From Pseudokineococcus lusitanus (GTDB lineage: Bacteria > Actinomycetota > Actinomycetes > Actinomycetales > Quadrisphaeraceae), in contig NZ_RJKN01000001.1 in assembly GCF_003751265.1 (NCBI RefSeq), positions 186,001 through 250,000 of the forward strand: a stretch of 64,000 nt of DNA, given 5' to 3'. The first letter of the stretch is position 1, and each line of letters begins with the position of its first letter. The position numbers and the translations under genes are program-made. Shown piece after piece: positions 23,867 through 64,000 of the stretch. The notes under the pieces were generated by a model. It saw only the letters and a program-made list of their open reading frames with translations, searched no databases and was not told where the DNA came from.

Positions 23867-23914
23867 GGTCAAGCCCTCGGGCTTGACCTGGCACCATCAA
23901 GCACCCAGGCTTGA
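23867..23914. promoter_or_regulatory. Two palindromic operators upstream of the SatD-like gene
   Basis: GGTCAAGCCC-TC-GGGCTTGACC (23867-23888) is a perfect 10-bp dyad. TCAAGC (23897-23902) and GCTTGA (23909-23914) form a second dyad with a 6-base spacer. Both share TCAAGC/GCTTGA and end four bases before the start codon. This is a strong tandem operator candidate, probably for the encoded helix-turn-helix protein. Confidence 0.65.
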
Positions 23915-23917
23915 CCG

Positions 23918-61585: not shown

Positions 61586-62430
61586 GGGTGGGACCTCCCG
61601 GCGCCCGGGGCGCCGTCGTCGGTGGTGCGCTCGGCGTCGGCGCGCTCGGCCGCCTCGGCGGCGACCTCGCGGCCCTCCTCGGCGGAGCCGGGGCCCGCGT
61701 CGGGCAGGGGCATGCCCGTGAGGGCGACGGCGGCGAGCACGTGCTCGGTCATGGCCACGCGCAGGTCCTCGGTGGCCTGCGCCAGGGCGGTGCGGCGCGG
61801 GACGCCCGCGGGCGCCGTGAGGTGCACGGGCGCGCCGAGGACGACGTGGACGTGCTGGCGGAAGCGCGGCAGGGACGACGTCGAGCGCCCCGCCGGCCGG
61901 GTCCCCAGCAGCGCGACGGGCACGACCGGCGCACCGGTCTGCAGCGCGAGCCAGGTGACGCCGGACTGGAGGGACGCGACGTCGCCGCGGCCGCGCGTGC
62001 CCTCGGGGAAGACGCCGACGGACCCGCCGCGCCGCAGCACCTGGACGGCCGTGACGAGCGCGCCCCGGTCGCCGGTGCGGTCCACGGGGATCTGCCCGCA
62101 GCCGCGCAGGACGGCGCCCAGCCAGCCCCGGAACATCTCCTTCTTCACGAGGAAGTGGGTGCCCCGCGGCGCCATCCCCATGAGGAGCGGCCCGTCGAGG
62201 AAGCCGAGGTGGTTGCTCGCGAGCAGCACGGGGCCCTCGGCGGGCACGTGCTCGGCGCCGTGGCGCGTCACCGACCACAGCCCCTTGGACAGGACCCAGC
62301 CGACGGGCTTGCCCCATTTGGGCCCGAAGGTGCCGGGCACCTCGCGCGACGGCGCGGCCTTCTGCGGCGCCGCCGCCCCGGGGAGGCGGCGGGCCAGCGG
62401 GCCGGGCAGCGCCTCCCGCAGCCGGCTCAC
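61582..62430 (-). CDS. plsC: 1-acylglycerol-3-phosphate acyltransferase (PlsC)
   Basis: A 282-residue acyltransferase. The catalytic H-x4-D motif is in [18 protein letters not shown], and the second block is [20 protein letters not shown]. It adds the second acyl chain during phosphatidic acid synthesis, or acts on a related lysolipid. GTG 62430 overlaps the cmk stop. The Ala/Glu-rich C-terminal tail is probably disordered. Confidence 0.9.
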
Positions 62431-63185
62431 GGAGCCACCGCCTGCGCCGCCCGGTCGGCGACCGACGTCGGCGGCTCGGCGCCGGGCGGCAGCGCCTCCG
62501 GGACGGCGCGCAGGACGAGGGCGAGGACGGCGTCGACCGTCTCCTCCAGCGTCAGCGCGGAGGAGTCGACGGTGACGACGCCGTCGGCGGCCACGGAGAA
62601 CTCCGACACGGTCGAGTCGTCGCGGTCCCGGCGGACCACCTCGTCGCGGGTCCGCTCGCGCGCCGCGGCGTCGTCGGTGCCGTGGACGTCGCGGGCGCGA
62701 CGGCGCAGGCGTGCGTCCTCGTCGGCGACGAGGAGGACGCGCACGTCGGCGTCGGGCGTGACGACCGTCGTCGTGTCCCGCCCCTCGAGGACGACGCCCC
62801 GGCCCCCGCGGGCGGCGTCGACGACCTCGCGCTGGCGGCGGCGCAGCTCGGCGCGGACGTCGAGGTTGGTGGCGACGGCGCTGACGGCGGACGAGACGCG
62901 GCTCGTGCGCAGCTCCTCGGCGACGAGGCGCCCCTGCACGCGGACGGTGGGGCCCGTCGGGTCGGTGCCGAGCTCCAGGTCGAGCTGCCGCGCGGCCTCG
63001 GCGACGGCGGGGCGGTCCTCGAGGTCGACGTCGTTCTCGAGGCACCACCAGCACACCGCGCGGAAGGTCGCGCCGGTGTCGAGGTACTCGGCGCCGAGGC
63101 GGGCCGCGACGGCCCGGCTGACGCTCGACTTGCCGGAGCCGGAGGGACCGTCCACGGCGACGACGACCGGGCGGTGAGCGGGCAT
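62427..63185 (-). CDS. cmk: Cytidylate kinase
   Basis: A 252-residue kinase that converts CMP and dCMP to the diphosphates. Walker A is [18 protein letters not shown], the CMP-binding signature is [11 protein letters not shown], and [19 protein letters not shown] and the lid RDRDDS are present. ATG 63185. Full length. It is the first gene of the operon; the tandem repeat array lies directly upstream. Confidence 0.94.
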
Positions 63186-63340
63186 GACGGTCCCCCGTAC
63201 GGCTGAGGATGGAGGCGGTCTGCCGTGGCAGGCCGCCGGGTGCGGCGGCCACGCGGGCGCCGGCCGTCCGGCCCGCGGCGTCGTGGCCGGGGGCCAGGGT
63301 AGTCGCCCGGCCCCCCGGGCCCCGCCGCCCGCGCCGGGAC

Positions 63341-63572
63341 CCTCGCTGCCGACGACGATCCCTGAGGCCCCCCTCCACGACTTCGCTGCCGAAGACGATC
63401 CCCGATGCCCCCTCTCGCCGACTTCGCTGCCGAAGGCGATCCCCGAGGGCCCCTCTCGCCGACTTCGCTGCCGAAGGCGATCCCTGAGGGCCCCTTTCCA
63501 CGACGTCGCTGCCGACGTGGGCGCTCGGGACCCGTTCTCCACGACGTCGCCGCCGACGTCGCCCCGCGACGG
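63341..63572. repeat. 41-bp tandem repeats carrying hairpins
   Basis: About five and a half units repeat with period 41 (starts at 63341, 63381, 63422, 63463, 63504 and 63545; the first is 40). Each carries a stem of five bases around CTGC (or CCGC): CTTCG-CTGC-CGAAG in the second to fourth, CGTCG-CTGC-CGACG and CGTCG-CCGC-CGACG in the last two. The T-A pair changes to G-C on both sides, so the stem is kept. The array fills the gap between cmk and tyrA. It has no spacers like a CRISPR and no clear frame. Confidence 0.8.
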
Positions 63573-63584
63573 CCCCCCGCGTCG

Positions 63585-64000
63585 TCAGCCGGCGACGCGC
63601 CACCCGCGGCGCGGCAGCTCGGCCTCGAGGCGGGGGCGCTCGGCCGGCAGGACGGAGATCTCCGCGAGGCCGACGGGGCGGCCCTGGGCGTGCTCGAGGA
63701 CGAGGTCCTCGAGGTTGACGCCGATGTCACCCACGTCGTGGAGGAGCTGCGCGAGGCGGCCCGGCTCGTCCGGGACGAGGACGACGACGACCTCGTAGGG
63801 CACCGGCGCCCGGCCGTGCTTGCCGGGCACGCGCGCCACGCCCGCTCCCCCGGCGTCGATGGCCCGGGCCACGCGGGCACGGGCGCCCACCGCGCCGTCG
63901 ACCGGCCCGGCCGGCGCGACGTCGGCCGTGGCGGGCGTGTCCGCGGCGAGGGCGTCGAGGGCGCCGAGCACCTCGTCGAGGTCGTCGCGCAGGGCGTGCA
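63585..64000 (-). CDS. tyrA: Prephenate dehydrogenase, C-terminal part (cut by window end)
   Basis: The 3' part of a gene running off the window. The visible 138 residues end in an ACT domain (VVVLVPDEPGRLAQLLHDVG followed by DIGVNLEDLVLEHAQGRPVG and LAEISVLP), typical of the C-terminus of actinobacterial prephenate dehydrogenase. The ACT domain binds an amino acid for feedback. The catalytic dehydrogenase part lies beyond position 64,000. The position upstream of cmk-plsC-der is the usual actinobacterial order. Confidence 0.8.
   Translation of the reverse strand, partial: HALRDDLDEVLGALDALAADTPATADVAPAGPVDGAVGARARVARAIDAGGAGVARVPGKHGRAPVPYEVVVVLVPDEPGRLAQLLHDVGDIGVNLEDLVLEHAQGRPVGLAEISVLPAERPRLEAELPRRGWRVAG

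Follow-up and report, generated by a model that had tools for sequence, protein, structure and literature searches.

A dispersed intergenic palindromic repeat with a 41-bp period between tyrA and cmk and elsewhere in the genome of Pseudokineococcus lusitanus

The intergenic region between tyrA and cmk of Pseudokineococcus lusitanus includes a run of short hairpin-forming repeats, and the question raised by this locus is whether the array serves the neighboring gene or belongs to something that extends beyond it. The original prediction was made on the window, i.e., the whole stretch of 64,000 nucleotides analyzed here. It described 41-bp units with a stem around CTGC located directly upstream of cmk and downstream of tyrA, and it took a paired base change in the final two units as a sign of selection for the structure and not for a protein sequence. 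The relevant features, with the repeat unit named family A, are listed below.

62427 to 63185, minus strand: cmk, cytidylate kinase (PF02224, Cytidylate_kin, 3.7e-51)
63294 to 63306, minus strand: element GCGACTACCCTGG, with a promoter -10-like TACCCT; the array is upstream of this element
63338 to 63561, no strand assigned: whole array, six family-A units (TRF, pattern and gene calls)
63340 to 63355, plus strand: core of unit 1, CCCTCGCTGCCGACGA; no pairing at stem positions 1 and 3
63380 to 63395, plus strand: core of unit 2, ACTTCGCTGCCGAAGA; ACTTCG-CTGC-CGAAG type
63421 to 63436, plus strand: core of unit 3, ACTTCGCTGCCGAAGG; ACTTCG-CTGC-CGAAG type
63462 to 63477, plus strand: core of unit 4, ACTTCGCTGCCGAAGG; ACTTCG-CTGC-CGAAG type
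63503 to 63518, plus strand: core of unit 5, ACGTCGCTGCCGACGT; G-C replaces T-A
63544 to 63559, plus strand: core of unit 6, ACGTCGCCGCCGACGT; G-C replaces T-A, loop CCGC
63585 to 64000, minus strand: 3' part of tyrA, prephenate dehydrogenase (PF02153 and PF20463, PDH_N/PDH_C)

The description of the array held in most respects. TRF (period 41, 89% matches, 63343-63515, with an additional period-123 row that extends to 63576) and a pattern search identified six units, the 16-nt cores of which are in register with center-to-center spacings of 40, 41, 41, 41 and 41. The array is non-coding, as the claim about protein sequence implied. Its end lies 23 nt beyond the tyrA stop codon (63585-63587; the gene runs on past the window edge) and its start 152 nt ahead of the cmk ATG, and the TACCCT element in front of cmk may be its promoter -10. 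The paired exchange of T-A for G-C is confirmed on both arms, since the cores of units 2-4 are of the type ACTTCG-CTGC-CGAAG and those of units 5-6 of the type ACGTCG-CYGC-CGACGT. The stem is conserved in units 2-6 but not in the degenerate unit 1, in which CCCTCGCTGCCGACGA is unpaired at stem positions 1 and 3. Elsewhere in the window, at 23869-23915, there are two near-palindromes, TCAAGCCCTCGGGCTTGA and TCAAGCACCCAGGCTTGA, separated by 28 nt, which presumably resemble the tandem operator of a MerR-type regulator.

The 3.84-Mb source genome (G000) was searched on both strands for CTTCGCTGCCGAAG with up to one mismatch, which produced 85 matches compared to none with the reversed pattern used as control. 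A two-unit pattern matched 61 times per strand in G000 (control, 0) and had no matches in any of the three congeners (G001, G002 and G003); judging from these patterns, the family-A repeat appears to be species-specific. A looser pattern matched 66 times per strand in G000 and 0-2 times in each of the 395 other genomes of the order. Matches to this pattern were present in 45 of the 396 genomes, G000 included, versus two genomes with the reversed control, and those outside G000 appear to be chance occurrences within coding sequence. When the contigs of further genomes were scanned, nearly all of the at least 120 stretches listed contained one match. Covariance-model E-values in relatives are unreliable at such G+C richness, and scoring covered the best 150 candidates in each genome. 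Among these, the top match outside G000, from another genus of the family (G007; L216:1501-1560), was rejected, being a 12-bp tandem repeat, (ACGTCGCTGCCG)n, that holds a G-type family-A core.

Family A amounts to at least 27 arrays of 2-8 units in G000, with a total of 114 units, every one in a called intergenic gap. About 0.52 Mb (14%) of G000 was fetched as sequence. The 27 stretches fetched included 26 arrays in 25 stretches, two of them in L023; L009 and L024, each with a single chance coding match to the one-mismatch pattern, were left out of the array counts. One more array, L209, whose third unit is degenerate, was added through a covariance model; degenerate arrays may be missed because the best 150 of 24,675 candidates were scored. 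The unit totals used below are 109, 111 after the addition of L021 by hand, and 114 after that of L209. Since the pattern used to pick units partly fixes the inner stem letters and allows four loops, degenerate end units are missed and not counted, but no inner unit failed it because no array has an inner double gap. Of 13 occurrences of the 10-nt center TCG(CTGC/GCAG)CGA in 400 kb of contig C1, 12 were intergenic; the seven exact 16-nt cores were all intergenic, and none of the exact cores was solitary.

The distance between units is nearly constant. Among 87 center-to-center spacings, 78 were of 41, six of 40, two of 42 and one of 39. A profile of 60 head-to-tail unit pairs (42 CTGC plus 18 turned GCAG) showed a strongly conserved core, flanked on one side by a conserved CG, and a degenerate spacer in the middle of which there is a weak purine-to-pyrimidine turn. 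A weak GGGGCCCC dyad is located halfway between family-A cores; none was noticed by eye in the other families described below. Of 109 units, 106 had CTGC or GCAG as the loop, which gives the direction of each unit. The pattern permitted two further loops only, but the arrays are without inner gaps, so that no inner unit was missed on account of a different loop. The orientation steps within arrays were > > in 47 cases, < < in 22, > < in 17 and < > in one. The arrays are thus formed by one block or by two blocks that meet in one sense (> > < <), and the > < junction is present in 17 of the 27. At L018:2490-2630 the loop switches between CTGC and GCAG from unit to unit while the spacers hold their direction, so single loops seem able to invert within their stems.

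We propose, with a probability of about 0.5, that family A is a REP-like DNA satellite kept or copied by a putative 41-bp ruler, and that the window array is one dispersed copy of it. Family A would be a dispersed non-coding palindromic satellite, one of several families in the genus with a length of 41-42 bp, and it would act as DNA. Each dyad, composed of the half-site ACKTCG around the CTGC center, is a predicted recognition site for a dimeric protein, and these sites would recur every four helical turns, facing the same side of the helix. A putative dimeric protein or amplifying enzyme with a 41-bp footprint may both set the period and spread the units, and the insertions would persist mainly behind gene 3' ends, where promoters are left unbroken. 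The case for a two-fold site in family A comes from the conservation of the core against a degenerate spacer.

Functionless satellites, an explanation that we consider unlikely, would arise from rare seeds, expand by slippage or unequal crossing-over and be homogenized by gene conversion, leaving the common length as a by-product of duplication. The units are more alike within arrays than between arrays (spacer identity, 0.65 and 0.39, respectively), as local tandem duplication predicts, and the families differ between species. Nonetheless, cores are about 0.88 identical genome-wide, although spacers from different arrays are near random (0.39 versus 0.31 after shuffling). Furthermore, the spacing is exactly 41 bp even where neighboring spacers are only 0.29-0.48 identical, as is the case in L014, L015, L016 and L031, which contain an orientation switch that may lower spacer identity, and in three of four comparisons in L019, which does not contain one. 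Such spacing, kept despite divergent spacers, indicates that either there is selection on the spacing or units are produced at this length by an enzyme. Simple slippage, moreover, offers no ground for one length in several families.

The occurrence of other families with this length was surveyed with TRF in 400 kb each of G000, G002 and G003 and of two sister genera (G004 and G006), and in 275 kb of a third (G005). In the three species of the genus, 18 of the 25 intergenic clusters with a period of 30-60 were at 40-42 (7 of 8 in G000, 5 of 9 in G002 and 6 of 8 in G003), two of those in G000 being family A. The three sister genera together had three intergenic clusters in this period range, one with a period of 42. 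Coding repeats in that length range had periods that are multiples of three, with the exception of two of period 32 in G000. In a makeshift control (904 kb, no gene calls), the sole period-41 cluster of five was L121:5871-6500 from Terrilactibacillus laevilacticus, with 15 copies of a 41-bp unit of different, low-G+C sequence. This array gives no independent support for the period because the spacing was already fixed in the pattern that detected it.

Family B, CGARCAGGCGCCYGYTCG, matched 83/82 times per strand in G000 versus 11/11 in the control, and 11/8, 10/12 and 22/16 times in G001, G002 and G003, versus controls of 8-12. Neighboring pairs of family B, among the matches listed and grouped by hand, were 41 bp apart in 36 of 39 cases; two wider gaps, of 83 and 122 bp, or roughly two and three periods, are not among these 39 pairs. 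Family B is palindromic, for example at G000:C1:111729-111912 (L302) and 306834-306982 (L312), with 16 arrays as grouped among the matches listed. Family-B units were also observed just past family-A arrays (L016:2720, L016:2761 and L023:3928). Family C, TGCCGACRVAGTGC, had 179 matches in G003 versus 17 in the control, compared to 43 versus 20 in G000, 35 versus 18 in G001 and 50 versus 22 in G002. Once wider gaps had been split off, its spacing was 41 bp in 24 of 33 pairs and 40 or 42 in the rest, among the matches listed and grouped by hand. Arrays of family C, with up to about ten 41-bp units, are found at G003:C1:82076-82442, 381743-382156 and other places. By eye, the short center CTGCCGA is common to families A and C, which for this reason are perhaps not wholly independent; family B bears no likeness to that center.

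A few further arrays were observed. Two arrays of 41-42 bp in neighboring gaps of G002 (C1:308841-309171 and 307599-307742) have cores in opposite orientations, with the form GGGCGA...TCGCCC around a TGGCCA center. The 275 kb of the sister genus G005 contained one case only, L237:444-560, in which two to three 42-bp units with the core GCACKTCG..CGACGTGC follow the stop of a gene. At G000:C1:252517-252680 there is a 48-bp tandem repeat with the hairpin CGACGGTCGCCGTCG, which is probably coding. The palindrome as a general feature of 41-bp arrays was weakened by a comparison of 20 consensus units with periods of 39-43, in which the hairpin score of three (G000:306834, G000:333057 and G005:444) beat 95% of shuffles; those of two family-A consensus units, including that of the window array, were equalled by 36 and 67 of 200 shuffles. 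The features common to the arrays are the length and the intergenic place, and not always a palindrome.

A broader reading, which we offer tentatively, is that a genus-wide ruler of 41-42 bp (four DNA turns) operates on intergenic DNA independently of sequence, with families arising and being replaced from one species to the next while the period stays constant. The families that this ruler may have shaped, again tentatively, would be A and B in G000, C in G003 and others in G002. If true, this would be the bacterial equivalent of a satellite DNA in which a packaging protein, or a putative amplifying enzyme, dictates the monomer length through its footprint.

The placement of the arrays bears on whether they act as DNA or as RNA. 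According to a home-made gene caller, 19 of the 27 arrays are between co-directional genes (including L017, with a plus-strand rhodanese gene just left of the array as determined with a retrained caller and Pfam), five between convergent and three between divergent genes; the other gaps of at least 80 bp in 400 kb were 100 co-directional, 17 convergent and 54 divergent. A gene 3' end adjoins 24 of the 27 arrays versus 117 of the 171 other gaps (p=0.038), and 17 of the 19 co-directional arrays are nearer to the 3' end of the upstream gene (p=0.0007), with a median gap of 31 nt. Survival of insertions away from promoters would explain this preference, which RNA elements would show as well.

The arrays could be hairpins in 3' untranslated regions that serve as tandem terminators lacking a U-tract or that impede 3' exonucleases, as was proposed for REPs, but this seems improbable to us. 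The proximity to gene 3' ends and to the upstream stop codon (24 of 27 arrays; median of 31 nt for the 19 co-directional ones) is accompanied by stems of 6-8 bp with a tetraloop, and REPs are located likewise (PMC3733652). However, three arrays are between divergent genes, and the loop has no single orientation with respect to transcription (51 GCAG and 31 CTGC). The fold energy of the window array, the one array folded, was no better than that of shuffles on either strand (z of -1.43 and -0.72), and the array has no T-run; intrinsic terminators with a T-run numbered zero in 63150-63650. A search of 62000-64000 against Rfam produced no credible match, only two sub-threshold miRNA matches inside cmk. 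An RNA role does not require exactly 41 nt across different families either.

The changes in the stem also weigh against this explanation. In the sense RNA of co-directional arrays, the cells that are not Watson-Crick were 4 G-U, 8 A-C and 10 other outside pair 3, and G-U was present in none of the 21 such cells at pair 3; family-A stems show no wobble preference. The third of the six core stem pairs is the only strongly variable one. In 111 units it was T-A in 63, G-C in 21 and neither in 27, one of them G-U, and it was never A-T or C-G. The absence of these two pairs, which pairing would also allow, makes a pure pairing constraint doubtful at this position. As letters of the half-site, there were 149 T, 66 G, 7 A and 6 C, so that T and G together account for 215 of 228. 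The two arms are linked at this pair (Fisher p 1.7e-8, common descent not corrected for), and 18 of the 21 G-C units occupy an end position of their array; the linked T-A/G-C states could be inherited and not selected.

The original prediction held that stem-breaking changes in many units of other strains would speak against selection for the structure, and this partly applies to the present genome because only 65 of 109 cores pair completely over six bp. Some constraint on two-fold symmetry stands nonetheless. In an alignment of 76 overlapping unit pairs, in which many units occupy two rows, 26 cells were changed on both sides versus 15.3 in shuffles, with one of 500 shuffles as high. The changed cells come mainly from the T-A/G-C pair. 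Model pairs with changes on both sides were 4 of 16 versus 4.3 in shuffles, and further pair types were 16 versus 17.1. A two-fold DNA site with the half-site ACKTCG explains the covariation at least as well as RNA, since a dimeric protein that reads both half-sites would lead to the same paired change as RNA pairing.

The history of the tyrA-cmk locus was followed in the congeners. The array is absent in all three, where the two genes are adjacent. The distance from the tyrA stop codon to the TACCCT element is 62 nt in G001, 64 nt in G002 and 21 nt in G003, and 278 nt in G000, and the element itself is GCGACTACCCTGG in G000, G001 and G002 and GCCACTACCCTGA in G003. The empty sites and the conserved element indicate that the array entered or arose between the end of tyrA and the TACCCT element, as a dispersed insertion and not as a conserved cmk leader. 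The site of L021 is empty in G003 (gap of 23 versus 383 in G000) and that of L022 in G002 (82 versus 365); for the other 24 array sites there was no comparable flank pair in the 400-kb blocks of G002 and G003. A regulatory element specific to cmk or tyrA, such as an attenuator or an upstream activating site, is very unlikely: the array does lie upstream of the conserved TACCCT element before cmk, but family-A units are present at 26 other places, the ten neighbor genes typed by Pfam (of 54 listed) are functionally mixed, and the site is empty in all three congeners. The array is not a cmk-specific element, selection of the structure for the sake of cmk has no support in these data, and the initial interpretation is too local. 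We rank a DNA-level, protein-linked satellite first, neutral satellites next and hairpins in 3' untranslated regions third, with a cmk switch far behind.

Dispersed non-coding satellites were reported to be rare in prokaryotes (PMC6749651), and a genus with one 41-bp period across different families represents a tractable system in which to study how the monomer length of a satellite is determined. The genus also points to a way in which small palindromes could spread in the absence of a Y1 transposase; how CGTC REPs do so is an open question (PMC3733652). These results are a warning that a single hairpin array is not to be taken as the regulator of its neighbor gene.

CRISPR arrays are made of short palindromic repeats at a regular distance. 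Family A has both properties, but its spacers are related within an array (0.65 versus 0.39 between arrays), unlike the unique spacers of CRISPR, and it forms many small arrays with a repeat of only 16-20 bp. Mycobacterial MIRU-type repeats are intergenic tandem units of actinobacteria with variable copy number; family A is likewise made of intergenic tandem units and probably differs in length and sequence. Among the titles and abstract openings listed in searches of open-access literature, none described a comparable 41-bp intergenic bacterial repeat.

The likeness to the REP/BIME/REPIN elements is closer. As described in PMC3733652, these are extragenic palindromes of the 20-bp class with a 4-nt loop, present in tens to hundreds of copies, that form species-limited families, occur as pairs in opposite orientation and prefer the 3' side of genes, as family A does. 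The palindrome, the copy number and the paired orientation of REPs are found in family A; the tags and the Y1 transposase are not. The conserved unpaired GTAG or CGTC tag is lacking, and the positions flanking the core show only a conserved CG on one side and, on the opposite side, C and then G or C (60 and 76 pairs). In addition, there are no solitary exact cores in 400 kb, and the unit spacing of the arrays is nearly fixed at 41 bp. Mobilization by a RAYT/Y1 transposase in this genus was ruled out on the Pfam model PF01797, which had no match in the four genomes of the genus, G000 included, and was positive in 5 of 14 named genomes as controls. CGTC REPs are themselves said to have no dedicated transposase (PMC3733652).

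The other relevant class is that of the dispersed prokaryotic satellites, non-coding tandem repeats of more than 30 bp scattered over the genome. In PMC6749651, which covers 119 bacterial and 142 archaeal species, families of long repeats are reported only in Leptospira interrogans, with lengths of 46, 46, 46, 37 and 69, and in Methanocella conradii, with a length of 37; the length of 46 is thus common to several Leptospira families. Family A differs in having a two-fold core, a degenerate spacer and the > > < < order, and the present case differs in that several families of one length extend across species of a genus, in a high-G+C actinobacterium. With these features of its own, family A is a member of the dispersed non-coding satellites.
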